From contig CAJCCX010000061.1 of assembly GCA_903961015.1 (NCBI GenBank), positions 70,105-108,181 on the forward strand: 38,077 nucleotides of DNA, written 5' to 3'. This document shows, in pieces, positions 13,988 through 35,180 of this stretch. The notes below the pieces were generated by a model, which saw only the letters and a list, made by a program, of their open reading frames with translations, did no database searches and was not told the DNA's origin. How positions within the stretch are numbered: the stretch's first letter is position 1; every line of letters begins with the position of its first letter. A program made the position numbers and the translations under genes. Source of the DNA: an uncultured bacterium. GTDB taxonomy: Bacteria; Planctomycetota; Phycisphaerae; Phycisphaerales; SM1A02.

Positions 13988-16717
13988 TTACTTTGCTCGA
14001 AGACGCAAGACTCCGTCCGATACTTCTTCTCCCTCTCGAATCAATTCAATCGCCTCCAAGTACATCTTGGAAACTTTCGATTCGCCAAATCGCGTCTCGA
14101 ATTCTTTCCATGCTGCGGCGGACTCATCAATTTTTTGTGCCCGAAACAGTGCTGCGGCATGTTCCGTTGCTGCGATCCACAAATCATCTGCATCGAGTCC
14201 AACGACTTCGAAGATTTCAATTGGCTTCGACTGACCAACAACAATGATTGCCCCAAGTGCTCGAATCTTGATAGAAGAATTCCCCCCCTGCGCAATAATT
14301 CCCCGATGCGTTGCACCGTCGATCAGGACGCCTGTACCAAACTGTTTGTTCGCACTTTCTAAGCGTGCCGAAAGATTCACGACATCGCCGATCGCGGTGT
14401 AATCGTTCAGTTTCGGTGGCGCACCGCAGTCTCCGACGACTGCCATTCCCGTTGCGATTCCAAGTCGTACAGAAATCTTCGGCGAACCGAATTCTGAATT
14501 CTTTGCCAGTTCCCTCATCGCTGCTTGGCATGCGACTGCGCTCTCTGCTGCAAGTGATTCCTGCCGTGGTTCATCGCCGAATGCTGACCAAAATGCCATA
14601 AAACCGTCGCCTAAGAATTTATTGACATAGGCGTCTCGTGCAACTAACTCATCCGACAAACGACCGAGATACAAATTGAGAGTTCGCACCACACCAGGAC
14701 CGCCGAGTTGTTCTGCGATCGTGGTAAATCCCGCGAGATCTCCAAAGATCACTGTAATCTCGCGCTCCTGTCCACTCATGGTGAGGGCGTCAGGATTATT
14801 CGCTAAACGCTGGACTAATTGCGGTGACACACGGGCTGAAAATTGCCGCGTAATTCGAGCGCGATCGCGCGAAGTCAAGACTGCCATTGCAGCGGTTCCT
14901 GTCACCCACGAAGCAACTGGCGCGACCGCTGGTCCAACAAGCGGCATAATGAGATGCAAGTCATTGAAAGCAAATCGGCCCGCCGACCAGAGCCAAATTG
15001 TCACAAGAATTGCTGAGGCAACTGCACTCCAACCAGTGGCGAGTCGACATGCACAAAGCGAAGCCATTCCGCCGAACAAGAAGATGGCGAACAGCTGTAT
15101 CCAATCTGGCGCTTCATCACGCGAATGATTGCTCAGCACCATGTCTGCGACGACGGCATGTACAAAGACCCCAGGCGTTTTGGGGTTATATGGAGTCGGA
15201 ATGAAATCCGCCAATGCGCCTGTTGCTGTCCAACCAAGGAACACCAGTTTGTCGTTCAACTTTTTTCGAAGTTCGCCCGAACGATTCGCAAGATCGACTG
15301 AACCTCGATCTACTTCCTCGAAGATTTTCTGAAAGTCGTCGACCGCATCAGCAGCATTCGCAGGGATCGCATCATTCATCCTTGCGTCGTCCAGAATCTC
15401 AGCGAATTCTTTCGAAGACTTCGCTGCAATTGCAGGCGTATTCCACTCCGCAACGAATCCAAGAACTTTTCCGCGCATCTCATCAAGGCGTCTTTCGTTT
15501 TTCCTTTGTTGCTGACGATCATCGCTGAGACCAATCAAAGTCCCAATCGAAACTGCGTGACGTTCTTGGCCTTCCATTTCACTCTGTGACCACTTTTCAA
15601 ATCCACCATCAAAGGTTGAAGTCGGCCAGTCCAACTCCATAATTCCATTCTGCAATGGAATGGTTGTCTGTCCTACTTGGAGCGAGTCCTTGCTTGCAAC
15701 AATGTCGCTCAACTTCATGCCCATGTGTGTTGCAGAAGACACCAGCCCAAGTTGATAGGTCTGCCCACTTGGAATCTGCCAGGTTGTTCCGGTGCGACGC
15801 TTTGCGCCATCAAAATCTATTTCACTTTTCTCGTTCGTCAGTACACCAAGACCAGAGGCTTTTTCGGCCAAGACTGAGATAGGAGGTTCATGCTCATGTC
15901 CACCGAGCAATGCTTGGTGTTCTGCATCGTGCACCATTTCCTCTTGAAACGCGCGCCAACTCCGCGCCCGATCCCACAATTTCTCGATCAGGTTGCGCTC
16001 AGCAAAATTCCCAGAATTGTTTCCACCTTTCAATTTGAAAATCAAATCCTCTAGTGGCGGAATTCGGCCTTGTGCTGCGCTCTGCCAAATGACTTTCCAT
16101 GCTGCCAACCCCTTAAACCAAAGTGGATTTTGGAGGAAAGAATCTCTGCGAGCACTCGTCAGTTTGGCACTGTCTGCAACCTGTACAGAATCCCCGTCAA
16201 TGTGTGATGACAAGACATCGATGACCGCTGCGAGTTCGATTTTCCCTTCTGGAGTTTCCCACTCCACTCCCGGCGTGAACTTTCGACTGACATCCATTCC
16301 TAAAACAGTTCGCAGACCTGCCATCGCAGTCGCGAGAGAATCGTCGCCACCAACTTCAGCATCCGGCTCGCTCAATTGAAGATCGAGCGCCACCGTACGG
16401 GCTCCAGCAAGAGCAATTTCATCGATTGCAGAAGCGAGTATTCGACGAGGCCATGGCCAACGTCCGAAGGTGTTGAGCGAACTGTCATCGATGACGACAA
16501 GCGCGATCTGATCAGACAATGGCTCTGGGGTAGATCGTGCGTGTTGGTAACGCCAATCAACAGAATCAAATTCCCAGTTGTTCAGCACACCAAGCCATGC
16601 GAGTAGTGCGACTATGACCGTCGCGCTGAATCCAACTGTAAATGCAATCCATGAAAAACGCTTCACAGGTGCATTATGGAGCGAGTTTGAAAAACACGCT
16701 CGACGAGTGGCTTTCAA
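13988..16717 (-). CDS. CHASE2-domain adenylate cyclase, class III (IIIb pattern)
   Basis: Membrane-bound sensor that makes cAMP. Of 909 residues, an N-terminal helix (about 22-43) leads into a very long extracytoplasmic CHASE2 domain (IALVVIDDSSLNTFGRWPWP near 71-90, to about 530), with an inserted region near 170-290. Three helices follow (about 540-610), then the cytoplasmic cyclase domain from about 650. Metal aspartates are Asp660 (FGDLAGF) and Asp704 (KFLGDGF). Lys700 and Thr774 fit the purine-binding pair of class IIIb adenylate cyclases; Asn781 and Arg785 complete the transition-state set, so the enzyme looks intact. The start is TTG 16717, three bases after the FecR-gene stop; GTG 16666 is an alternative. 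It is the last gene of the four-gene envelope set. Confidence 0.9.
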   Translation of the reverse strand: MKATRRACFSNSLHNAPVKRFSWIAFTVGFSATVIVALLAWLGVLNNWEFDSVDWRYQHARSTPEPLSDQIALVVIDDSSLNTFGRWPWPRRILASAIDEIALAGARTVALDLQLSEPDAEVGGDDSLATAMAGLRTVLGMDVSRKFTPGVEWETPEGKIELAAVIDVLSSHIDGDSVQVADSAKLTSARRDSFLQNPLWFKGLAAWKVIWQSAAQGRIPPLEDLIFKLKGGNNSGNFAERNLIEKLWDRARSWRAFQEEMVHDAEHQALLGGHEHEPPISVLAEKASGLGVLTNEKSEIDFDGAKRRTGTTWQIPSGQTYQLGLVSSATHMGMKLSDIVASKDSLQVGQTTIPLQNGIMELDWPTSTFDGGFEKWSQSEMEGQERHAVSIGTLIGLSDDRQQQRKNERRLDEMRGKVLGFVAEWNTPAIAAKSSKEFAEILDDARMNDAIPANAADAVDDFQKIFEEVDRGSVDLANRSGELRKKLNDKLVFLGWTATGALADFIPTPYNPKTPGVFVHAVVADMVLSNHSRDEAPDWIQLFAIFLFGGMASLCACRLATGWSAVASAILVTIWLWSAGRFAFNDLHLIMPLVGPAVAPVASWVTGTAAMAVLTSRDRARITRQFSARVSPQLVQRLANNPDALTMSGQEREITVIFGDLAGFTTIAEQLGGPGVVRTLNLYLGRLSDELVARDAYVNKFLGDGFMAFWSAFGDEPRQESLAAESAVACQAAMRELAKNSEFGSPKISVRLGIATGMAVVGDCGAPPKLNDYTAIGDVVNLSARLESANKQFGTGVLIDGATHRGIIAQGGNSSIKIRALGAIIVVGQSKPIEIFEVVGLDADDLWIAATEHAAALFRAQKIDESAAAWKEFETRFGESKVSKMYLEAIELIREGEEVSDGVLRLRAK

Positions 16718-16720
16718 TCT

Positions 16721-19700
16721 TTAATTCGACGGCAGGCTAGTTTGACGTGAGCCACCGTTTGCCACGACCATTGCACTGGCGGCATCGATTCGGGCATTGG
16801 TGGCAGCTTGTATCGCTTGATCGGCAAAGATTCGAGCTTGATCCGCACGAGAGACCGTATCAGCGGCAATTTCCGCCGTTCGAGTGAAGAAAACTCGGTC
16901 TCCCATACTGCGCGCAGCATCCGCGGCAGCAAGCGCAGCATCTCTGGATGCAGCAGCTCCTGCGCGCTGAACGATCGCTTGGTCACGTGCGGCAAGGGCA
17001 AAATCTCTTGCACTATTCGCTTGAGCAGACCCAATCACAACTGCGAAATTGTTTGCCGCTTGAGAAAATGCCAATGCTTGGTCGGCGGAATTGGATGCAC
17101 CGGACGTCGCCGTTCCTGCGACATCCGCAAATATTTTTGCTTGAGCCAATGCAACCGAGTAATCTTTGCCTGCTTGCTGCGAGATCGCAGCCTGTTCCAA
17201 AGCCATATTCGCATATCCCCGCGTTTCGATGGCCGAAGAGTCCGACGCACCCGCCGAGAACTCGCTCTGGGTTGCACTCGCATCCGCACTGAACGCGCTC
17301 TCAAAATCCTGATAGGTCGTCGTAAGGAAAAAACCATTGGCTTCTATTGCGTACCCAACTGCGAAGTTCATTTGACTTTGCGCTTCGGCCAGCGAAACTC
17401 CTGCGGATGCGAAGAGCGATGACACAGTTGTGAGAGCCTCGTTATGAACACCAATAGCTTGCGATGCAGAATCGCGAGCAAAGACCGTATTGCCAAGGGC
17501 AATATCCGCATCAACTCGAAATGCAAACGCATCAGCGCTTGCCAAGAATGCACCAGCAGAGCTTTGCGCAAGATTTGCATAGTTGTTTGCGTTGTTGGCA
17601 AATGATTGGGCATCGTTCGCAGCGATACTTGCATTCAATGCAAACTGCTTCGCTTCTCCAGCAAGGCTGGCCGACTGTTGGAAAGATGCTTGCTCGATCG
17701 CCGAACTTCCCATCGCAACTTGCTCGAGCGCAGTATCGCGTGCCACAATTGCTGCAGAAGCACGTTCGAGAGCCATCACACTCAACGCGAGTGCACGATC
17801 AGCGATCGCCTGAGCGAGTTCAGATCCTGCAAGAGTCGCAGCGTCTTGCGAGAATCCTGCGGAGACTTGGCTATCCGCGGCTCGCTGTTGGGCAAGCGCG
17901 GAGTTCGCATCGATACTTGGGGACAGTGCTGTTGCCGCACCGAGCGCATCTTGTGCAAGAATTTCTTGAGCGTGCGAGGTTGCTGCGAATCCAGCGGCAT
18001 CGTCATCGAAAGCAAACGCAGAACTCTGAGCAATCAGTGCAGCATCGGCAGCATCATTTGCAGAAACAGCTTGCTCACCAGCAGTCTGAGAAAATGACAT
18101 CGCCAAATTCGCATCACCTGAGCTCATCGCAAGAAGCATCTGACCAAATGAATCAAACACATTTGTATCTTGCAATTCAGATTCATCTCGTGCGGCAATC
18201 GCAGAGTCTAAATTTTGGGAAGCACCATCTCTTGCACCTTGCAAACTTTCGAATGCCACTTCATGAACTGAAATCGCACTGTCAATCTGAGCGGCATAGG
18301 CTGCAACTGAAACTCCTTGGAACTCGACATTCGTAGCGGCAGAATCCGCTTCAATCTTGTTGACAAGAGTTTGGATCGCTTCGCTGGCGGAGTTGGATTC
18401 GGCTGATCCAATATCAAAAGTTCCCTGCACGGATTCCAAAGCCGCTAGCGCTCTTTGCGCATTTGCGAGTGCAACCTGTTGCGCGCTCGAAACTGCCTCA
18501 AAGTTTGTGACAGAAATGCGAGCTGCGAGTGTCTCTGAAAGATCATTCGCTGAAAGCGAAAGGTCGCTCGCGCCTTGAGCAGCAGTTCCTGCAAGCGCGG
18601 CAAGATTCGAAGCTGCATCAGCGATAGCGCCAACCATCAGCGGTTGATTTGAACCACCGGAAACTGCTGCGGCAGCAAACTGGTGAGAGAGGTCAGCCAT
18701 TGCTGCAGCGTCATTTGCACTTGATGCACCTGCCTCAGCAGCAGTTGCCACTTGTTGGCTTGCGTCATTCGCCGCGAAGGCATCATTTTCGATTCCGACT
18801 TGAAGGCTTTGCGTTGCTTCAATTGCGTATTCCCATCCGTAGTAGGTCGCTGTTGAAGTTGCGGACGAACTTGCGTCAGTCGCACTGACAAGGAGATTCT
18901 TTGCTTGACCGCCAAGCGCCGCCCAGCCGTTGGTGATCGCATTTGCTCCATTGAGGTCTTGATCGTCCAGCGCAACAAGAAGCGCCCCCAAATTTTCATG
19001 AAACTCACCGAGTAATCCACCGATATTGCTGACCGCATCTTCTGCAGCAACTGCGTCGCTTTCTGTTGTCACGACTCTCGCCGCAGCGTCGTCTGAGAAG
19101 TTCTGCACGGTGTCCAACATTCCATTTGCATCGGCGACAATAATCGACAGATTCAAGGAAACATTATGACTCGTCGCCAATGCAACTTGCGCTCCGACAA
19201 GTCCATCCAAAGCCCCCACTGCCGTCTCCGCTGTCGCCGCCTCAGCATCCGCAACTGCGGCGAGCCGCGCAGCTTCGATCGCTGCATCATCGGCCGCTCC
19301 TGCTTGGGCACCAGCAAGTTCTGCGGACGCCATTGTTGCGCTGAAGTCAAGCTGATCTCCAGATTCATTCGTGACTGCCGCGAGCGCCGCAACAGCATCG
19401 TCGCGTGCATTTGCAGCATTCTGTGCATAGCCATTCGCATCCGCTGCCAAAGTCAGGGCACGTTCAACAGCATCGAGTGCCGCTTGCGAAGCGTCAGAGC
19501 CAGTGAATTGTAAAGCGAATGCGTTGCCGTAAGTTTGCGCGGTTCCCGCTGATGCACTTGAAGCAACTGCAGCGCTTGCACTTTCTGCAGCCTTTGCAAC
19601 CGCATCTGTGAGTGCGGCTCGAATCTCCGCGAGACGATCGGTATAGGACGAAAGTGCATCTGCAGAGAGTGAAGTCTGACTTTCTGCAACACCAGCTGCA

Positions 19701-21844
19701 AGGCTCGCAGTATCTGCTGAGCCTCGAGCAACATCGGCACTCACTTGGGTTGCATCAGCAAATCCGCGCGCTGCGATGGCAGCCGATGTCGCCGCACCCT
19801 GATTTTGTTCGTTCAGCGCCGCGAGGCAGGCTGCGACGGAGTCTGTTGTAAATCCACTATTTTCAATCGCACTGTCGAGATGTCCAAGCGCTTCCACCAG
19901 CGCCTGAGCTGCATCCAGCTGAGCGTTATTCGCAACGTTGGCTGCATCACTATGAATCCCAATTTGCGCCTGCGCTTCTGCACCGCGAGCCTGAGCAATA
20001 TCACGGAAGGCTTGGGCGGCATCCTGCGTTGCACTCGCCGCACTTGCATCATCTTGGGCTGCAAGCATTGCATTGATCGCAAGATCCAACTTGCCCATTC
20101 CATTTTGTGCGTCGGTCGCAGCAGCAACTGAGGCTGTCGATGCCACAAACGCCGCGAGTGCGTCTTGCGCCGCAGCAAGTGCAGCTGCCTGTGCCGCTGC
20201 AAGCACCGTGTCCTGAGCATCCGCTTGCGCAGAAAGTGCTGCAGTCAATGCATCGTCGCGAGCACTTTCAGCGAAGAGCACTGCCTGCGATGACAATTCC
20301 AAACGTACTAGTGCAGCGCTGAGACTTTCTGCGATACCCGCGAGCGGACGACGAGCATAAATGGTGGCAATCTCGTCTCGTGCAATCTTGACCAAGGCGA
20401 GATATTCACGCGCGGAAGCCGCAGCAGACGAACCTTCCAAAGCTGCTGAAACTACTTGATTCGCTGCACTCTGAGCATTGCTCTGCGAATCAAATGCTTC
20501 TGACAATCGACCGAGGGCAGTCTCGCTGAAATCAACAACAAGAGCAGATCCCGACAACGCATCATCGGCGGTCTCTCTCGAAAGATTGGCATCATTGATA
20601 GCGTCGTTGGCAAGTCCACGGACATCTCCTTCACCAGAAACAGCAAAGATCGCCAGCGCCTGTCGTGCATTTTCAAGCGCCGCCGAGCGAGCCTCTCCAG
20701 ACTCTGCGAGTGCGTCATTCACCAACGCGAGTTGTTCTGCAACCGACACTGCTGCCTCTTCAACATCATCACGAGCATCACGAGCCGCTTGAGCATGAAA
20801 CTGTGCGTTCGAAAGTGCAGCCTGCGCATTCGAAAGCGCATTAATTGCAAGTTGAAGTTGAGCACCAGCGCCTTGAGTTGCGAGAGTTGAGTGATTCAAG
20901 AAATCCTCAACGGCTTTCACATCTGCAAACACTGCCGCAGTGCTGTCACCAGTTTCAGGCTCAGTTGAACCTCCCGTCGCTTCTGTCACCGCTGCAGCAA
21001 CTGTTGCGACCGTGCTGCTGATCTGTGTTTGTGCCGTTGTTTGTGTGGTTCCCATCGATGCAGATGCTTCATGCTCGGCTGCGCTCGTGGCAGTTCCAGC
21101 CATCGGAAGAGCACCAATCGAACTCATCAACGCGCTTGCGGCAGGCTCTGGAGATGCTGAGGAACTTTTAGAATCTCCGCCACCAGACATTTGTACAACC
21201 TGATTCGTTGCTGCATATTTCAATTGAATCGCAGCGATCGCGTTGGTTCGAGCGCCAGTGACTTCGGTTCCAGTCATAGCGCCAGTTGTCACACTGAATC
21301 CGGTACCTCGGACAGCGAGCGTCGAACTGGGTGTCACGACTTTAAAGTCATTCTTTGCGCCAACTTTATCGACTTGGAAATCCGCTCGCCCAGATTTCAT
21401 CTGTGCAACAGTGCGATAGACATCGCCATCGCTTTCTTTGACAAGTTCCGAAGTCGGCATCGCAAAATTCGAATTACTGTCGATCAAAATCGTGGCGTTT
21501 TCAAACTTCAAAGTCATTCGTGATCGCAGTCCAGTGCGAACTTCAGCACCAGCAGAAAGCAAGTCGTTGACCGCAGCATCTTTTGCATCTTTCCATGCGA
21601 TGTCTGCGCCGACTCGCCATTTCACCTTGCCAACGCAGTCAATCACTTTCGCTTGCAGTGGCGCTGATGCGACGGTTGCAACTGCTGGAACAACTGCCGC
21701 ATTGATTGGGGAAGCTTTGGATTCTTGGAGTGGCGCATGTGTGCTGACCAACGGTGTTTCTGCACTCGCTACTTCCGCAACAATTGTGGTGAGAGACAAC
21801 AAGACACCAGATGCTGTAGAGATGAAAGAATATTTTGAATTCAT
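16721..21844 (-). CDS. Giant secreted FecR-domain protein with about 1,400-residue Ala-rich helical repeat region
   Basis: I do not recognise the long part. ATG 21844 gives 1,707 residues and a compact signal peptide (MNSKYSFISTASGVLLSL, cleavage after VASA). A coupled GTG at 21886, overlapping the lipoprotein stop as GTGA, is the alternative start. Residues about 66-185 form a FecR domain (GKVKWRVGADIAW to STLAVRGTGFSV). A Ser/Thr/Ala linker runs to about 305. The remaining 1,400 residues are Ala, Ser, Asp, Gln and Asn rich; I count nine Lys, four Pro, two Trp and one Cys. Variants of ARDxAxxAA recur (ARDDALTAAL, ARDDAVAALAA, ARDQAIVQRA, SRDAALAAADAA). This predicts a very long Ala-coil or trimeric/filamentous helix. 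FecR without a transmembrane anti-sigma part suggests a periplasmic or surface structural role. Confidence 0.85.
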   Translation of the reverse strand: MNSKYSFISTASGVLLSLTTIVAEVASAETPLVSTHAPLQESKASPINAAVVPAVATVASAPLQAKVIDCVGKVKWRVGADIAWKDAKDAAVNDLLSAGAEVRTGLRSRMTLKFENATILIDSNSNFAMPTSELVKESDGDVYRTVAQMKSGRADFQVDKVGAKNDFKVVTPSSTLAVRGTGFSVTTGAMTGTEVTGARTNAIAAIQLKYAATNQVVQMSGGGDSKSSSASPEPAASALMSSIGALPMAGTATSAAEHEASASMGTTQTTAQTQISSTVATVAAAVTEATGGSTEPETGDSTAAVFADVKAVEDFLNHSTLATQGAGAQLQLAINALSNAQAALSNAQFHAQAARDARDDVEEAAVSVAEQLALVNDALAESGEARSAALENARQALAIFAVSGEGDVRGLANDAINDANLSRETADDALSGSALVVDFSETALGRLSEAFDSQSNAQSAANQVVSAALEGSSAAASAREYLALVKIARDEIATIYARRPLAGIAESLSAALVRLELSSQAVLFAESARDDALTAALSAQADAQDTVLAAAQAAALAAAQDALAAFVASTASVAAATDAQNGMGKLDLAINAMLAAQDDASAASATQDAAQAFRDIAQARGAEAQAQIGIHSDAANVANNAQLDAAQALVEALGHLDSAIENSGFTTDSVAACLAALNEQNQGAATSAAIAARGFADATQVSADVARGSADTASLAAGVAESQTSLSADALSSYTDRLAEIRAALTDAVAKAAESASAAVASSASAGTAQTYGNAFALQFTGSDASQAALDAVERALTLAADANGYAQNAANARDDAVAALAAVTNESGDQLDFSATMASAELAGAQAGAADDAAIEAARLAAVADAEAATAETAVGALDGLVGAQVALATSHNVSLNLSIIVADANGMLDTVQNFSDDAAARVVTTESDAVAAEDAVSNIGGLLGEFHENLGALLVALDDQDLNGANAITNGWAALGGQAKNLLVSATDASSSATSTATYYGWEYAIEATQSLQVGIENDAFAANDASQQVATAAEAGASSANDAAAMADLSHQFAAAAVSGGSNQPLMVGAIADAASNLAALAGTAAQGASDLSLSANDLSETLAARISVTNFEAVSSAQQVALANAQRALAALESVQGTFDIGSAESNSASEAIQTLVNKIEADSAATNVEFQGVSVAAYAAQIDSAISVHEVAFESLQGARDGASQNLDSAIAARDESELQDTNVFDSFGQMLLAMSSGDANLAMSFSQTAGEQAVSANDAADAALIAQSSAFAFDDDAAGFAATSHAQEILAQDALGAATALSPSIDANSALAQQRAADSQVSAGFSQDAATLAGSELAQAIADRALALSVMALERASAAIVARDTALEQVAMGSSAIEQASFQQSASLAGEAKQFALNASIAANDAQSFANNANNYANLAQSSAGAFLASADAFAFRVDADIALGNTVFARDSASQAIGVHNEALTTVSSLFASAGVSLAEAQSQMNFAVGYAIEANGFFLTTTYQDFESAFSADASATQSEFSAGASDSSAIETRGYANMALEQAAISQQAGKDYSVALAQAKIFADVAGTATSGASNSADQALAFSQAANNFAVVIGSAQANSARDFALAARDQAIVQRAGAAASRDAALAAADAARSMGDRVFFTRTAEIAADTVSRADQARIFADQAIQAATNARIDAASAMVVANGGSRQTSLPSN

Positions 21845-21882
21845 TTGGTTGGCTTTCGTACGTTCCAATCGATCCTCGATGT

Positions 21883-22500
21883 TCACTCGAACCGCCCTGT
21901 TGGGGGCAGCGGCTTTCTTGTCGGTTCTTGACTAGTTGCCTGTTTAGGCAGTTTCTCAAGAACAGAACCGCTACTTAAATTTGTCATTCTGGCGAACCGA
22001 GTCAAATAATCAACAAACTCTAAGCCTGAAAAACTCTGCGTTTCCTTCTTTCCCACCAAAATTTGCATATGTGTGAGCTCGCGGACTGCATATCTTGGCA
22101 TCGGTCCTATAACCATCATCGATAGACCACCCCTTATTTTGGCGATCCTGCACGAAGCAGATGCCACCCAACCAACCTCCGCACTTTCGTTTGCAGGTTC
22201 ATCAAATGAAGCTGACAACCATTTTCGGCGCTTCGCTTCCGCCACTCTCTCGTCATATGTGGTCCATCCATCATCCTTATCTGTAAGCAGGAAAAATGAA
22301 TGCAGAGCATCGTTATTGCTAACCACTTGGTTTTTTTCAAGATCTTCAAAGAATTCAATTTCCGAATTTGGGGACTCAAACTTTTCAACAGATGACGTCG
22401 TCGTTGTCGCACGCTCGCAACCGACGATTGCAAATGCAAGTGCGAGCAATGCCCCGCGCTGAGAAACTTTTGCTTTCAAAATAAAAAGATTAGAAAGCAT
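21883..22500 (-). CDS. Predicted lipoprotein, function unknown
   Basis: A 205-residue protein with a lipobox: LALAFAIVGC, the acylated cysteine being Cys28, followed by Glu and Arg, so outer-membrane sorting is plausible. The mature part starts with a Thr/Ser linker (TTTTSSVEKFESP) and continues as a charged soluble domain, with SCRIAKIRGGLSMMVIGPMPRYAV near the middle and a Pro-rich end. No family recognised. Its ATG lies inside the end of the barrel gene (11-bp overlap), and its stop overlaps the alternative GTG start of the giant gene. It is therefore surely translated with them, and probably works with them in the envelope. Confidence 0.75.
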   Translation of the reverse strand: MLSNLFILKAKVSQRGALLALAFAIVGCERATTTTSSVEKFESPNSEIEFFEDLEKNQVVSNNDALHSFFLLTDKDDGWTTYDERVAEAKRRKWLSASFDEPANESAEVGWVASASCRIAKIRGGLSMMVIGPMPRYAVRELTHMQILVGKKETQSFSGLEFVDYLTRFARMTNLSSGSVLEKLPKQATSQEPTRKPLPPTGRFE

Positions 22501-24004
22501 AGGTCATGCCTGCATAAACAAAATCTCGTGCGCCACCTTGATTGTTTGGAAAGACCTCTGTGTTTGGCATAAAGACTCCATAGCGAATACTCAGGTCCAG
22601 ATCGCTCATCAAGCGCCATTCCAAGCTGAAATCCACTTCGCTCCCGACAAAGTTTGATCCACCATTCACTGTTTGAAATGAAAGCGGCGCATCATTCTCA
22701 ATTCGAGCGAATGCGAAGGCCGTTGCACCCAAACGCATACCGCCGAAGAATCCGTTTCCTGGAAGCGGAGTCGTGCTGAATCCAATTGAAGGGCAAAGAA
22801 GGTTTGCGAAGTCTGGAGCAAGCACGAGTCCAGTATTGACATATCCCATCGAATTGAACGACGTGTCCACTGCGCGAGGTGCAATCCCTCCAAATGTATT
22901 ACCTGGATCAAATCGTTGATTCGATCCAGAACCAGCGACGATCTGAAAATCGACGCGAGAGTCTTCTGTGTTTCGAGCGAGCCAAGTCAATCCACCTACT
23001 CCCGCCATCGCCGAGATCCGAGTGTCCTGCTGAGCAACTGGTGCGATTCCTCCTTCATGAGAAAGAGGATCAGAGAGTGTCGTTCCATACTCGTATATAA
23101 ATTCCGCGCGATAGACCAAATCCGCACCAATTGCACCGTTGCTGCCGAATCCAACATAGGTCGAGTTGTAATCAAATGTGGTGGGAATCGTTGGAGCCGA
23201 GGCTGGCAAAACTGCAACTTGACCATTATTCAGATCATTTTGCGCAAGGATATAGGCATAGGGTCGATGACCAGGAATGCCGCTGTACTCAAACTTTGCA
23301 CCGTAGTAAAGCCGACTTGTGTTTGTATCAAATCCAGGGCGTGAGAGATCCCAATCTGTAGTGTCCTCTCCAGCGGTCTGACCAACCATCGTGGTCAGTT
23401 TGTACTCGTGCCATGAAAAATCAAAGATGCCGGCGTACATGTAATTACTCAGTGCAGCGCCCGATCCCCAAATCACATACTGGCGGCCCATCTTTGCTAC
23501 GAAGTTGTAATCCGGCTTCGCCCCTGTCTGTGTTTGAATCATTCCCGCGAGATTGAATTCATACCAATACAACTCGCCGATTGGATTCTGCCAACCTTCG
23601 TCGTTGTATTCAGGACCAACGGCACGCGTGTCATTGAAATCCCATTGGTTGTAAAGAAAACGAAGACGGCCATAGAAACGGTGAGCACCATCAAGTTCGA
23701 TGGAAGTGAAGAGACGAAGATCATACACCTGCTCGTACGTTTCCTTGCTTTGTGCTGTGTCGATAATGTTGAATGCGTACCGAAATGTGCCTCCATAGTC
23801 GATGGTTAATCGCTCGGCGATGGGAGAATTGGAAAAATACGCTTTGCGCATCGATGCGTCATCGTTGTTCAGTTGACGCTGTAGATTTTCTGCTGATTGC
23901 GCAGAGGAATCCCTCTGTGGTGCGGAAAATGCAGACTTTGCATTCAAGCAGAATGCAAACGCACAGAGGCACAAAAACAGATTTCTTAAAAGTGCATTGG
24001 TCAC
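22490..24004 (-). CDS. Outer-membrane beta-barrel protein, porin or alginate-export-like
   Basis: Exported protein of 504 residues. I chose GTG 24004 because GAGG lies six bases upstream and the signal peptide (VTNALLRNLFLCLCAFAFCL, cleavage after SAFSA) then starts at once; an ATG at 24046 is the longer option. After a short helical lead come many alternating aromatic/polar strands (RFYGRLRFLYNQWDFND, NFVAKMGRQYVIWGS, LYYGAKFEYSG, VYRAEFIYEYG), ending in FVYAGMTYAF with the terminal aromatic expected of a BAM substrate. The pattern recalls the alginate-export (AlgE) barrel family, without proof. It is first of the four-gene set and diverges from the MBL gene, 74 bp away. Confidence 0.8.
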   Translation of the reverse strand: MTNALLRNLFLCLCAFAFCLNAKSAFSAPQRDSSAQSAENLQRQLNNDDASMRKAYFSNSPIAERLTIDYGGTFRYAFNIIDTAQSKETYEQVYDLRLFTSIELDGAHRFYGRLRFLYNQWDFNDTRAVGPEYNDEGWQNPIGELYWYEFNLAGMIQTQTGAKPDYNFVAKMGRQYVIWGSGAALSNYMYAGIFDFSWHEYKLTTMVGQTAGEDTTDWDLSRPGFDTNTSRLYYGAKFEYSGIPGHRPYAYILAQNDLNNGQVAVLPASAPTIPTTFDYNSTYVGFGSNGAIGADLVYRAEFIYEYGTTLSDPLSHEGGIAPVAQQDTRISAMAGVGGLTWLARNTEDSRVDFQIVAGSGSNQRFDPGNTFGGIAPRAVDTSFNSMGYVNTGLVLAPDFANLLCPSIGFSTTPLPGNGFFGGMRLGATAFAFARIENDAPLSFQTVNGGSNFVGSEVDFSLEWRLMSDLDLSIRYGVFMPNTEVFPNNQGGARDFVYAGMTYAF

Positions 24005-24078
24005 GTAATCCTCAAAAGTTTTACCACTTGATCCCATTTGTTGCACTCATAAACAAGAGTGACACTATTCTATCAGCG

Positions 24079-24828
24079 ATGTCGATTCGCGCAGTTATCA
24101 CAGGGACTGGAAGTGCTATCTCGGACCGCAATTATGGGTCGAGCGCTGCAGTCATCACCAAAAATGGTTTGGTACTAATCGATTGCCCAGATTCCATTCT
24201 GCGTGCAATGAAAGATGCGTCAAAGAAGAGCGGAATCGATCTCGACCCGATGAGAATCACGGACATTTTGATCACTCATCTTCATGGGGATCATGTGAAT
24301 GGCCTGGAAACTCTCGGTTGGAAAAGATGGATCGCACGACAAAGTGGCAACGGCATCCAACCAAGAATTCATACGATCGAGTCTGTCGCAAGCAGACTCT
24401 GGGAGCGGCTGGCCCCAGCCATGGACCAAAACGGAAACGCAAAACTTTCTGATTACTTCTCTCTGAACATTCTTGTTCCTGGAGTTCAGGCTTCGATTAC
24501 AGAACTTCGCGTGGAAGCTCGATCATCAGAGCATCTCATTCCTTCTTGTGGATTTCGCATTTCAAGCGGTGGCGCAACACTTGGTTGGAGTGGCGACACA
24601 CGCTTCGATCCATCTCATATCGATTGGCTTGCAGCCGCAGATGTGGTCATTCATGAGACATCTGAGTCCAGAGTTCATACTCCCATCGCGTGCCTGAACG
24701 CACTCGCCCCAGAATTACGCCGCAAGATGCGGCTGATTCATATGGAAGACAACTTTGATCAGGCAGTGACCGACATCGTGCCTTTGACCGAAGGCGAAGT
24801 GCTCGAAGTCGTTGGCTTGGGTCGTTGA
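24079..24828 (+). CDS. Metallo-beta-lactamase-fold hydrolase, RNase Z-like
   Basis: A cytoplasmic metal hydrolase of 249 residues; the open frame extends far upstream, but that part overlaps the barrel gene and is not coding. ATG 24079 starts MSIRAVITGTGSAISD. The zinc motif THLHGDHVNG gives His67, His69, Asp71 and His72; further ligands are likely in WSGDTRFDP and the IHMEDN segment. The GTGSA start and the order of motifs resemble RNase Z/ElaC-like members, but the chain is short and the exosite arm of tRNase Z is not evident, so the substrate is open. The last 70 bases overlap the 3' end of citrate synthase on the other strand. Confidence 0.8.
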   Translation: MSIRAVITGTGSAISDRNYGSSAAVITKNGLVLIDCPDSILRAMKDASKKSGIDLDPMRITDILITHLHGDHVNGLETLGWKRWIARQSGNGIQPRIHTIESVASRLWERLAPAMDQNGNAKLSDYFSLNILVPGVQASITELRVEARSSEHLIPSCGFRISSGGATLGWSGDTRFDPSHIDWLAAADVVIHETSESRVHTPIACLNALAPELRRKMRLIHMEDNFDQAVTDIVPLTEGEVLEVVGLGR

Positions 24829-31550: not shown

Positions 31551-32324
31551 ATGAAAGCCGTCATACTCGCTGGTGGACTCGGAACGCGAATTTCCGAAGA
31601 AACACATCTCAAGCCAAAGCCCATGATCGAAATCGGCGGCCGCCCGATTCTTTGGCACATTATGAAAATGTATTCCGCACACGGCGTGAACGACTTCATC
31701 ATCTGCTGCGGCTATCGCGGTTACATCATCAAGGAATACTTTGCCAATTATTTCCTACACATGTCGGATGTGACCTTCGACATGGCTCACAACAAGATGG
31801 AAGTACACCACCAGAAGTCCGAGCCTTGGAGAGTCACGCTCGTCGATACTGGCGAAGACACTATGACCGGTGGCCGACTGAAACGAGTGGCGGACTACAT
31901 CAAGGATGAAGATGCTTTCTTTTTCACCTATGGCGATGGCGTCGCTGACGTGGATATCACCAAGGAACTCGCATTTCACAAAGCGCACGGGAAAATGGCG
32001 ACCGTTCTCGCAGTTCAGCCACCGGGGCGATACGGTGCGCTCCAACTTGATGGCACGGTCGTTCGCGGTTTTACCGAGAAGCCGCGTGGCGATGGCGGTT
32101 TAATCAATGGCGGATTTTTCGTGCTCTCTCCAAAGTGCATTGACTTGATCAAGAATGACCAATCAAGTTGGGAGGGGCACCCACTCATCAAACTTGCAAA
32201 CGATGGTCAATTGCAAGCATTCGAACACACTGGATTTTGGCAACCCATGGATACCTTGCGCGACAAGACGCAACTTGAGGATCTGTGGGCTTCAGGCAAA
32301 GCCCCTTGGAAAACGTGGCAGTGA
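31551..32324 (+). CDS. rfbF: Glucose-1-phosphate cytidylyltransferase
   Basis: Makes CDP-glucose from CTP and glucose-1-phosphate, the first step of CDP-6-deoxyhexose synthesis. The 257 residues match the family exactly in size. The nucleotide-binding opening [39 protein letters not shown], the [12 protein letters not shown] metal region and [19 protein letters not shown] are all diagnostic of the cytidylyl, not thymidylyl, enzymes. A GGAAAG sequence lies about ten bases before the ATG. It is the first plus-strand gene of the cluster, and its stop overlaps the GTG start of rfbG as GTGA. Confidence 0.97.
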
Positions 32325-33397
32325 AATCCGAATTCTGGAAGGGAAAGCATGTCTTCGTTACTGGGCACACGGGGTTCAAAGGTGGATGGCTTTCGCTTTG
32401 GCTTACAGAACTTGGTGCGCAGGTTCACGGTTACGCACTCCAACCAAACACAACTCCAAATTTTTTTAATGAGTGCAAGTTGCGCCCACGATTAGCGAGC
32501 AGCACCATTGCCGACATTCGCGACACGCAAACTTTACTTGTCGCACTGCAATCTGCGAAACCAGAAATCGTGTTTCACTTGGCCGCGCAACCATTGGTTC
32601 GCTACTCATATGACCAGCCTGTTGAAACATATGCCGTGAATGTGATGGGCACTGTGAACCTGCTGGAAGCTGTGCGATACACGCCAAGCGTGCGCGCGTT
32701 GGTGAATGTGACCACTGACAAGTGCTACGAAAATCACGAACGTCCGGAGGCCTACCGAGAGGGCGAGGCAATGGGAGGTCACGATCCATATTCCAGTAGC
32801 AAGGGTTGCTCGGAACTCGTGACCGCTGCGTACCGCCGCTCTTTCTTGGCGCCAAATGGGACTCATGTTGCCACTGCGCGCGCTGGGAATGTCATCGGCG
32901 GAGGAGACTGGGCAATGGATCGATTGATTCCCGACATTCTTCGTGCGCTTGACGCCAAAGAATCGATTTCGATTCGCTCACCACACGCAACTCGCCCCTG
33001 GCAGCATGTGCTTGAGCCTCTTTCTGGATACTTGTCACTTGCAGAACATCTCTTTTCTGAAGGCAGCGCATTTGCACAGGCGTGGAACTTTGGGCCACGG
33101 CTCGATGACAGCAAATCAGTTCAGTGGATTGTCGAACATCTCTGCGCAGCTATTCCTGGCGCAACTTGGCGCGCCGAAACGACGCAGCAACCTCACGAAG
33201 CGAACACGCTCACACTTGATAGCACGAAGGCTCGAGAACAACTTGGATGGCAACCTCGCTGGACGCTGACCGATGCGCTGCGACACACACTTGAATGGCA
33301 TGCAGCATGGAAGAATGGCAAAGACCTCCAGTCAATGAGCGTGCAACAGATCTGCGACTATTCCAAAGCAATGCAAATGATGGCGAGCGCGAGATGA
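32321..33397 (+). CDS. rfbG: CDP-glucose 4,6-dehydratase
   Basis: Converts CDP-glucose to CDP-4-keto-6-deoxyglucose, with tightly bound NAD. GTG 32321 gives 358 residues starting [15 protein letters not shown]; the longer open frame upstream is inside rfbF. The Rossmann motif is [11 protein letters not shown]. The [10 protein letters not shown] segment carries the dehydratase acids, and the [12 protein letters not shown] block holds the Tyr-Lys pair of extended SDRs. [12 protein letters not shown] and [15 protein letters not shown] are specific to this enzyme. It is coupled to rfbF upstream and to the epimerase downstream by 4-bp overlaps. Confidence 0.96.
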
Positions 33398-33957
33398 CGA
33401 CTCGCTTTGACATGTTGCCAACGCCACTCGATGGTTTGAAGGCAGTGCGCCGAAAGCCTGTTGGCGACGCGCGCGGCTTTCTAGAACGCATGTTCTGCGC
33501 TCAAGAATTTGAACAATTCCTGTACGGCAAGTCGATCACACAAATCAATCGCACGCTCACAAAAAAGTGCGGAACCGTCCGCGGAATGCACTTCCAATAT
33601 GTGCCACACACTGAAATGAAGTTCGTCACTTGCCTTCGCGGCGAGGTGTTTGATGTCGCTGTGGACGTCCGAAAAAACTCCCCCACTTTTCTACGCTGGC
33701 ACGGCGAGATGCTCACACAAGACAATCATATGATGCTGCTGATTCCCGAAGGCTTTGCCCATGGGTTTCAAACATTGTCGAACGACTGCGAGATGCTCTA
33801 CTTCCATACCGCTGTGTATTGCGCAGAGTCCGAGGGCGCACTGCATGCGCAAGATCCGCGACTGGCCATCAAATGGCCACTGGCAATTTCCGAGCAATCG
33901 GATCGCGACACGGCACACCCATTCCTTACGCTCGATTTTCAGGGAGTCGCACCGTGA
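33394..33957 (+). CDS. dTDP-4-dehydrorhamnose 3,5-epimerase-like protein (RmlC family)
   Basis: A cupin epimerase of 187 residues, probably acting on the 4-keto-6-deoxy sugar at C3 and/or C5. ATG 33394 is coupled to rfbG (ATGA). The RmlC features are DARGFLERMFCAQEF, the core QINRTLTKKCGTVRGMHFQ with the catalytic histidine, VFDVAVDVRKNSPTF and IPEGFAHGFQTLS. Since the neighbours make a CDP sugar, the substrate should be CDP-linked rather than dTDP-linked; this is inferred from position. Its stop overlaps the methyltransferase start as GTGA. Confidence 0.9.
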   Translation: MTTRFDMLPTPLDGLKAVRRKPVGDARGFLERMFCAQEFEQFLYGKSITQINRTLTKKCGTVRGMHFQYVPHTEMKFVTCLRGEVFDVAVDVRKNSPTFLRWHGEMLTQDNHMMLLIPEGFAHGFQTLSNDCEMLYFHTAVYCAESEGALHAQDPRLAIKWPLAISEQSDRDTAHPFLTLDFQGVAP

Positions 33958-35180
33958 AGTGTAGGCACTGCAACGCACTTTTAACGCTGCCGATGATTGA
34001 CCTTGGATCTGCTCCGCCCTCAAATGCGTATCGAAGCAAGCAACAACTTCAACAGCCTGAAATGAAATATCCGCTTCGAGTTCTTGTCTGCCAAACATGT
34101 TGGCTGGCTCAGACCGAGGACTTTGCACAAGCGAACGAATTGTTTGACGCCGACTACGCCTACTTCAGCAGTTTCTCAACCACGTGGCTGGAACATGCGA
34201 AGCAGTATGCGCATGAGATGTCGGTGCGATTCCATGTGGGGCCATCGAGCCATGTGGTTGAAATTGCCGCAAATGATGGCTATTTGCTTCAGTATTTCAA
34301 GGCGGCCAACATTCCATGCACTGGCGTCGAACCCACCGCCAGCACTGCGGCAGCGGCGCGCGCCAAAGGCATCGACATAGTGCAAGAGTTCTTCGGCGTG
34401 GCTCTTGCCCGTACGTTGGTCGCGCAAGGCAAGCAAGCCGATCTCACTGCCGCCAACAATGTCCTCGCGCATGTGCCTGACATCAATGACTTTGCCGCAG
34501 GCTTCACTGTCTTATTAAAACCAAACGGCGTCGCCACTTTCGAGTTCCCCCACCTCATGCAGTTGATGGCTGAAAATCAGTTTGACACGATTTATCACGA
34601 GCACTTTTCGTATTTGTCTCTGACAGCGGTCCAGCGCATTTTTGCAGCGAACGGATTGACGGTCTTCGATGTCGAGGAACATCCCACGCATGGAGGCAGC
34701 CTCCGAGTGTTCGCACAGCGAACCGACGCGGGGAATCAACCCATCACTGATCGAGTCACACAACTTCTTCGACAAGAGGAAACAGTCGGCGTACGCACAG
34801 AGAAGTATTATTCGGCATTCCAACTGCGTGCCGAAAAAATGAAAGATGACTTCATCGCATTCCTCATCGATGCAAAGCGACAAGGGAAAAGTGTGGCTGC
34901 ATACGGTGCGGCAGCGAAAGGCAATACGCTGATGAACTTTGCGGCAATCGGTGCTGATTTAATCCAGTACGTCGTTGATAAAAATCCAGCGAAACAAGGC
35001 AAATACATGCCTGGGAGCCAGATTCCCATTGTCGATCCAATCACCCTTCAGGAACACCGACCTGACTATCTCATTATCCTCCCTTGGAACATCGCCAAAG
35101 AGGTCAAGGAGCAAAATGCTCCACTTGCCAAACTTGGAACAAGATTTGTAACTGCCGTGCCGAAGTTGGAGATTGGATGA
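33954..35180 (+). CDS. Class I SAM-dependent sugar C-methyltransferase (TylCIII/CloU type)
   Basis: Adds a methyl group to a carbon of a nucleotide-linked 4-keto sugar. The 408 residues begin at GTG 33954: MKCRHCNALLTLPMIDLG. Cys3, Cys6 and the later CQTC pair form the N-terminal zinc-binding module (Methyltransf_13). The central SAM fold has VVEIAANDGYLLQYF and CTGVEPTASTA, then NNVLAHVPDINDF and the YHEHFSYLSLTAV block typical of sugar C3-methyltransferases. A C-terminal Rossmann-like module (VAAYGAAAKGNTLMNF, then YVVDKNPAKQGKYMPG) completes the three-domain layout. Length and order fit the family. Coupled to genes on both sides by 4-bp overlaps. Confidence 0.93.
   Translation: MKCRHCNALLTLPMIDLGSAPPSNAYRSKQQLQQPEMKYPLRVLVCQTCWLAQTEDFAQANELFDADYAYFSSFSTTWLEHAKQYAHEMSVRFHVGPSSHVVEIAANDGYLLQYFKAANIPCTGVEPTASTAAAARAKGIDIVQEFFGVALARTLVAQGKQADLTAANNVLAHVPDINDFAAGFTVLLKPNGVATFEFPHLMQLMAENQFDTIYHEHFSYLSLTAVQRIFAANGLTVFDVEEHPTHGGSLRVFAQRTDAGNQPITDRVTQLLRQEETVGVRTEKYYSAFQLRAEKMKDDFIAFLIDAKRQGKSVAAYGAAAKGNTLMNFAAIGADLIQYVVDKNPAKQGKYMPGSQIPIVDPITLQEHRPDYLIILPWNIAKEVKEQNAPLAKLGTRFVTAVPKLEIG

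Follow-up and report, generated by a model that had tools for sequence, protein, structure and literature searches.

What might unite an outer-membrane barrel, a lipoprotein, a very long alanine-rich protein and a nucleotidyl cyclase whose genes follow each other on one strand of a planctomycete genome? The question is raised by an uncultured member of the Phycisphaerales (SM1A02; assembly GCA_903961015.1), from which a stretch of 38,077 nucleotides was analysed (contig CAJCCX010000061.1, positions 70,105 to 108,181); the entire stretch is termed "the window", and all positions refer to it. The host genome comprises 2.9 Mb in 308 contigs, is 93% complete and contains a single CHASE2 match. The four genes are one conserved unit, kept together and absent together, and we incline, somewhat beyond an even balance, to the view that they encode a receptor-cyclase spanning the cell envelope.

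The four genes lie on the minus strand. An outer-membrane beta-barrel, AlgE-like by Pfam, is encoded at 22490-24046 (518 amino acids (aa) from a GTG at 24046, with an ATG at 24037 as alternative start), followed by a lipoprotein with an SLH-like predicted fold (21883-22500; 205 aa), an exported FecR/alanine-coil protein (16721-21886; 1721 aa from a GTG) and a CHASE2 class III nucleotidyl cyclase (13988-16717; 909 aa). The Pfam E-values are 2.4e-7 for Alginate_exp, 1.2e-8 for FecR, 5.2e-33 for CHASE2 and 3e-13 for Guanylate_cyc. The barrel and lipoprotein genes overlap by 11 bp, the lipoprotein and FecR genes share a GTGA overlap, and 3 bp separate the FecR gene from the cyclase gene, whose TTG start is uncertain. 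A preliminary description of this DNA had given the same genes, order and spacings, and its layout of barrel, lipoprotein, exported FecR protein and inner-membrane cyclase fits. Two of its details need correction: position 24004, taken as the end of the barrel gene, is an internal GTG (codon 15) of an open reading frame (ORF) that starts at 24046 or 24037, and the gap that replaces the GTGA overlap if the FecR protein starts at the ATG of its codon 15 amounts to 38 rather than 39 bp. Judged by eye, this ATG seems to suit a signal peptide better than the GTG; the signal peptides of the barrel and the FecR protein were themselves assessed by eye and not with a predictor. A terminator scan returned sites no more frequent than in shuffled sequences.

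The conservation of the block was followed in 61 genomes, namely the host's own and those of 60 relatives. Among these, the barrel is found in 30, the lipoprotein in 28, the N-terminal part of the FecR protein in 27 and the cyclase in 36, weaker cyclase-domain matches included. The fetched stretches hold 35 barrel-bearing loci, five of which are truncated at contig ends; in 27 of the 30 loci with full context, barrel, lipoprotein, FecR protein (one to three copies) and cyclase are encoded in this order on one strand. These 27 complete loci represent 25 genomes, many of them closely related, and are not independent. The giant gene is not regularly separated from its partners either: all 12 full-context loci bearing a coil keep every neighbour. 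At three loci (L118, L120 and L108) two or three tandem FecR genes lie between lipoprotein and cyclase. In a sample of 324 genomes of the phylum, the lipoprotein was detected in 35, the barrel in 43 (8 of them weak matches), CHASE2 in at least 127 and FecR in 238. Thirty-nine of the 41 listed lipoprotein places were used, two second fragments of one gene being dropped; with the weak barrel matches left out, a barrel lies within 3 kb of the lipoprotein at 38 of these 39 places, and CHASE2 lies within 10 kb at no fewer than 25. The four-gene set is phylum-wide, yet patchy.

The sites without the block are instructive as well. In G001 and G014, two genomes of the same genus, the genes for an FG-GAP protein, SpoIIE, the phosphodiesterase described below and citrate synthase are consecutive, and only 61 and 70 bp separate the SpoIIE and phosphodiesterase matches. 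A third genome of the genus, G018, retains at this site a remnant of cyclase residues 829-909 between intact flanks; since this remnant remains, G018 lost a cyclase rather than never having had one, and the other three genes were presumably lost along with it. Barrel, FecR protein and lipoprotein have no match anywhere in G001, G014 and G018 (92, 85 and 93% complete, respectively). The synteny at 27 of 30 loci, together with the empty and remnant sites, rules out a chance neighbourhood and bears out the assumption of the preliminary description that the four genes belong together.

At the presumed outer-membrane end of the system, 25 of 27 barrel family members match Pfam Alginate_exp at E<=0.1. 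All 40 barrel ORFs with a complete 3' end (41 were examined, one being cut) terminate in Phe-stop, and at 27 of the 40 ends the lipoprotein ATG sits at -11, within the last codons of the barrel (22490-22500 in the window). Given this conserved ATG, most of the lipoproteins begin with MRS or MHS. The barrel alignment (A2) comprises 27 of 35 ORFs, with L104, L106, L109, L111, L130, L133, L134 and L136 omitted; neither a comparison of the barrel with PDB sequences nor a plasmid search yielded a match.

The lipoprotein alignment (A1) comprises 30 of 33 ORFs (L121, L130 and L136 omitted), and the lipobox Cys28 is invariant in all 30. No Pfam family was found for the lipoprotein; none of the 30 sequences matches SLH at E<=1 or contains TRxE, the SLH signature, and the lipoprotein profile has no match among PDB sequences. 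The AlphaFold2 model (mean predicted local distance difference test score, pLDDT, 85.9) gave a more specific picture: the best 13 rows obtained with VIA-align are all SLH structures (Z 9.8-11.7, led by SpaA-SLH at 11.7), aligned over 115-127 residues with a root-mean-square deviation of 2.7-3.6 A, and the rows below this group drop to Z 7.0 (an S-layer cytochrome) and then 4.1. Foldseek also ranked SLH structures first, the best E-value being only 0.018, and VIA-align scores call for caution, as helical models can reach Z 13 through a common arrangement. What favours a real likeness of the modelled fold to SLH is the uniformity of the top rows and the drop in Z beneath them; in view of the absent signature we speak of an SLH-like fold rather than of an SLH protein. 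In other bacteria, SLH domains attach to cell-wall glycans.

The FecR protein in the window consists of a FecR domain (residues 115-207; 21266-21544, minus strand; Pfam 1.2e-8), an alanine-coil (residues 331-1620; 17027-20896) and a conserved C-terminal hairpin (residues 1621-1709; 16760-17026) with the motif MGxRV[FV]F at its turn. The corresponding alignment (A4) has 36 rows from 37 ORFs, after omission of L130 (cut by a contig end) and L137 (not part of a block) and addition of L159. FecR proteins examined range from 253 to 2001 aa, and 22 of the 36 related ones are short (253-595 aa) and not alanine-rich. The giant coil, treated as a core part in the preliminary description, therefore appears from these sequences to be a lineage elaboration. 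It is found in the genus of the window, in G019, G033, G035 and L147 and, by eye, in G342, while G022, G025 and G026, from the same family as the window, have FecR proteins of 342-595 aa without a coil. LysM domains occur in 5 of the 36 proteins, which points to the periplasm, and TPR matches are absent at E<=0.01 from the FecR protein of the window and from all 36. No sigma factor, TonB plug or STN match was obtained in the four block proteins and three neighbours scanned, and a FecIRA-type anti-sigma system was ruled out on this basis.

Full-length coils contain 25-34% alanine and carry net charges of -14 to -143; lysines number 1-12 per coil tail, except for 15 and 19 in the two G033 copies, and the tail of the window protein has a net charge of -120 with 10 lysines in 1491 residues. 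Between genera the tails vary from 444 to 1771 residues. Pooled over ten coils, alanine shows autocorrelation at 3, 4, 7, 14 and 21 residues, a spacing as in an alanine-based coiled coil; when the window coil was taken by itself, the spacings that passed were limited to 21 and 51 for the hydrophobic set and to 7, 14 and 25 for Asp/Glu, and a global Fourier analysis gave no single period. AlphaFold2 models of residues 530-1721 (11 sequences) contain helices of up to 121 residues, with a mean pLDDT of 83 in the best of five models and 64-75 in the others, so that the long helices are credible as predictions. A fold search with the coil retrieved nothing at E<=0.001; the best entry, the Umb1 umbrella particle (8w20; E 6.7e-3, with a TM of 0.15 relative to the query length), is regarded as a shared long-coil look only.

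The coil can be read as a tandem array of degenerate units, each about 281 residues long: five in the window protein, four in G005 and some six in L147. In the self-comparison (with a profile that excluded L103, which carries the deletion) the best of 171 segment pairs lies at a shift of 282 residues (hhalign single-pair E 1.5e-5), and 8 of the 20 best among 940 diagonal shifts, assessed without a shuffled null, fall within 273-296; whole-diagonal sums fail to single out a shift near 281. Independently of this comparison, G005 lacks 96+185=281 residues within residues 892-1173 of the window protein (18368-19213; alignment gaps), and its offset jumps from -10 to 272, i.e., by 282. The local offsets of L147 advance in steps of about 265-284, with the coil longer by about one unit net (a modest z of 3-5), and the steps of about 280 in L108_8225 are similar; the pattern is absent from the L107 and G342 coils.

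The FecR head and the C-terminal hairpin are the most constrained parts of the protein. Compared with G016 and G008, the ratio of nonsynonymous to synonymous substitution rates (dN/dS) is 0.03 in the FecR region (residues 75-232), 0.26 in the coil and 0.09 in the hairpin (taken here as residues 1621-1710); the coil value relative to G012 is 0.27, and relative to G015 only the hairpin (0.12) is unsaturated, the coil being saturated in dS. In each of the 11 genus sequences extending to the C terminus, the last hairpin carries MG[DEA]RV at its turn. Further afield, the hairpin profile matches the C terminus of L108_5984 (9.9e-9), L147 (2.8e-8) and L108_8225 (4.7e-5, with internal rivals from 9.2e-5), and its matches in L107, L109 and G342 are not significant. 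Aligned with six full-length relatives from the genus, the coil shows no more than 50 gap columns out of some 1,390; measured per 100 residues, its identity drops to 16-55% in the comparison with the most distant members of the genus. In most 200-bp bins across the middle of the coil (about 20250-18250), the DNA is 84-90% identical to G008 (comparison L101); identity is some 62-82% in most of the remaining block and 88-94% again at the 3' end of the cyclase gene; the pattern in the coil middle looks like an exchange between species.

The cyclase carries CHASE2 over residues 33-550 and a cyclase domain at 651-805. Three class III motifs, which we take to provide the metal-binding Asp, the adenine-selecting Lys and the transition-state Asn/Arg, are conserved over 36 aligned cyclases, two of them rhizobial; L111 and L116 have GN instead of GD in the third motif. 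Eighteen named records are matched by the cyclase: 14 are labelled as planctomycete (4 Phycisphaerales), one as "uncultured bacterium", and the remaining three come from other phyla, with matches confined to the cyclase domain.

Outside the block, and overlooked in the preliminary description, a gene on the plus strand (24079-24828) runs divergently from the barrel gene, 32 bp from the first possible start of the latter. Its product (P0013; 249 aa) is an Apyc1-like phosphodiesterase of the metallo-beta-lactamase fold with an HxHxDH motif (THLHGDHV). The closest PDB match is Apyc1 itself (7u2r, E 9.1e-17), and the scores stay below curated cut-offs (47.5 versus 50 bits for Pfam Apyc1; 45.5 versus 400 for the NCBIfam cyclic nucleotide-degrading phosphodiesterase). 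Close Bacillus relatives of Apyc1 prefer cyclic AMP (cAMP) or cyclic GMP, according to the available text of PMC9117128. The gene is present in 29 of the 61 genomes; of 41 barrel loci, 20 have it, always on the strand opposite the barrel gene, and it is a probable circuit partner. In G048 (L172, C44) a homologue directly follows a PP2C-type phosphatase (identified by eye) with a cyclic-nucleotide-binding domain. On the receiving side, cyclic-nucleotide-binding domains (threshold E 1e-3) occur in 19 of the 30 genomes whose cyclase homologue is strong (E<1e-50) versus 11 of 31 others, a weak association confounded by kinship, and a dedicated CRP-type receptor was not found. MscS-type channels elsewhere are known as cyclic-nucleotide gated, and a channel of this type in the host genome is a possible cAMP target. 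The GAF-SpoIIE phosphatase, which had been suggested as a member of the circuit, is not a necessary part: it remains in G001, G014 and G018, where the block is gone, and around many complete blocks, e.g., L107, L109 and L110, the fetched stretch contains no SpoIIE match at 1e-6. Farther away (window positions 32285-35180) lie genes for sugar-nucleotide dehydratase and C-methyltransferase, perhaps part of a surface-glycan cluster.

Taken as a mechanism, the receptor-cyclase that we prefer, by a modest lean, would work as follows. The AlgE-like barrel and the lipoprotein would form a receptor module in the outer membrane, the exported FecR protein would relay the state of this module across the periplasm to the CHASE2 domain, the inner-membrane cyclase would produce cAMP, and the adjacent Apyc1-like enzyme would probably degrade the messenger. 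The coil, composed of units of about 281 residues between constrained ends, would most likely be a periplasmic spacer that sets the reach between the partners. Complex formation, a ligand and cAMP as output are all inferred here. Several observations weigh against this scheme. Promoter-like sites are no more frequent than in shuffled sequences. Three of the 30 full-context loci lack an adjacent cyclase on the same strand, as the cyclase gene is inverted at L122 and none lies beside the block at L112 and L128, and in G193 (L161:3600-6900) the cyclase directly follows the lipoprotein, with no room for a FecR gene. The Apyc1-like gene has no match at 21 of 41 barrel loci and persists in G001, G014 and G018 without the block; 11 of the 30 strong-cyclase genomes lack a cyclic-nucleotide-binding domain, and the only such match in the host genome resides on the MscS-type channel (L158:958-2529, G000:C22). 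Finally, the coil model has a predicted template-modelling score of 0.37 and its helix packing is not credible, and the barrel aligned with the presumed NsrA of Sinorhizobium (S.) meliloti (a single sequence) at an hhalign probability of 0.17%.

Four other explanations concern mainly the coil or the barrel. Perhaps barrel and lipoprotein anchor the FecR head to the outer membrane, and the coil projects outside as a surface filament or adhesin, contact being reported by the cyclase. The great length and acidity of the coil, its long predicted helices, the fast evolution of its middle and the signs of exchange between species would suit such a filament; but the two ends, including the would-be tip, are the most constrained parts, LysM in some relatives points to the periplasm, and the FecR/coil protein (P0002) contains no Pfam surface-anchor domain; we regard the filament as a rather doubtful alternative. 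The coil could instead act as a quantised ruler, to which whole blocks of about 281 residues (40 heptads) are added or from which they are deleted as species adjust the reach across their envelope, with the FecR head on CHASE2, the hairpin at the barrel or lipoprotein, and cAMP reporting the spacing or tension of the envelope rather than a ligand; we consider this unlikely.

A coil length without any function, as a nearly neutral expansion of low complexity, would account for the varying tails of different genera, for the low identity to the most distant genus members and for the coils of L107 and G342 that show no super-repeat. Such drift is hard to reconcile with a dN/dS of 0.26-0.27, the scarcity of gaps within the genus, a loss in G005 that equals the repeat shift and the conserved hairpin, and we regard it as quite unlikely. 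Even a little less probable is that barrel and lipoprotein constitute a polysaccharide export pore, as AlgE does for alginate, which the FecR-cyclase pair only regulates: the prevalence of Alginate_exp matches and the sugar-modifying genes elsewhere in the window speak for a pore, whereas the conserved block includes no polymerase or synthase, and its constant partners are the lipoprotein, the FecR protein and the CHASE2 cyclase.

The block is real, conserved and partly precedented; what is new is the planctomycete form with four genes, together with a lipoprotein of SLH-like predicted fold, a modular coil and a phosphodiesterase gene next to the block. Within the literature searched, mostly without subscription papers, we found no reports on a CHASE2 adenylate cyclase of Planctomycetes, on the combination of FecR, coiled coil, outer membrane and adenylate cyclase, or on a planctomycete outer-membrane lipoprotein with an SLH domain. 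Planctomycetes have an unusual cell plan. What CHASE2 domains sense is for the most part unknown, as the available text of PMC5192318 states, and a system that is split, occurs across the phylum and has a defined outer-membrane module offers concrete parts for testing CHASE2 signaling. Block-wise changes in coil length, if true, make the modular setting or measuring of envelope reach in bacteria testable.

Known systems, considered here from the available portions of the papers cited, share parts of this arrangement. FecR proteins beside CHASE2 proteins, mentioned for other phyla in the preliminary description, are indeed published (PMC9239204, PMC5192318). The CHASE2 adenylate cyclase cluster of Campylobacterota contains a FecR-domain protein and a phosphodiesterase; it differs in having a TPR protein and in that the FecR protein itself is named an outer membrane protein, and the accessible passages mention no separate barrel or lipoprotein (PMC9239204). 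The BiofilmReg operon of Burkholderia places a LysM-FecR protein beside a CHASE2 receptor, reminiscent of the LysM domains found here; its output is a histidine kinase with a response regulator, and the outer membrane is not mentioned in the portion considered (PMC5192318). In magnetotactic bacteria mtxA is a conserved neighbour preceding a CHASE2 cyclase gene, and FecR is not mentioned in the text at hand (PMC4439547). RcsF-IgaA signals across the envelope with a reach set by protein length (PMC5736177); as its proteins and output are different, it is an analogy for the spacer idea only. SLH proteins match the lipoprotein in predicted fold, but not in signature or Pfam family, and the extracytoplasmic function sigma gene and TonB-dependent receptor that neighbour FecR in FecIRA were not matched in the seven proteins scanned.

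The closest precedent, on account of which the set is not without a nameable relative as had been supposed, is NsrA-CyaK of S. meliloti, where perception via the outer-membrane protein NsrA requires CyaK, the readout being a cAMP-dependent reporter (PMC7529298); CyaK itself belongs to the CHASE2 cyclases (PMC13001267), and residues 600-1200 of NsrA are described as a barrel (PMC7529298). On a 1.8-Mb S. meliloti megaplasmid an ORF for a 1209-aa protein with Pfam FecR (8.7e-15) and TPR runs into the ORF of a CHASE2 cyclase, and because size and neighbour fit, the two are taken for NsrA and CyaK; the presumed barrel half scores only 0.021 in Pfam. NsrA-CyaK and CyaD1-D2 share with the scheme proposed here an outer-membrane barrel protein needed for a cAMP response via a CHASE2 cyclase. 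Just as the presumed NsrA has a FecR domain and its gene abuts that of the cyclase, a CHASE2 class III cyclase gene stands in the window beside barrel and FecR genes. In NsrA, FecR, TPR and barrel apparently form one protein, whereas barrel and FecR are encoded separately here, a lipoprotein is added, an alanine-coil takes the place of TPR, and the barrels are not detectably related. The planctomycete block would operate in the manner of these known systems, and going by the features compared it can be classed as a split variant of the NsrA-CyaK type of receptor-cyclase, equipped with a different barrel.

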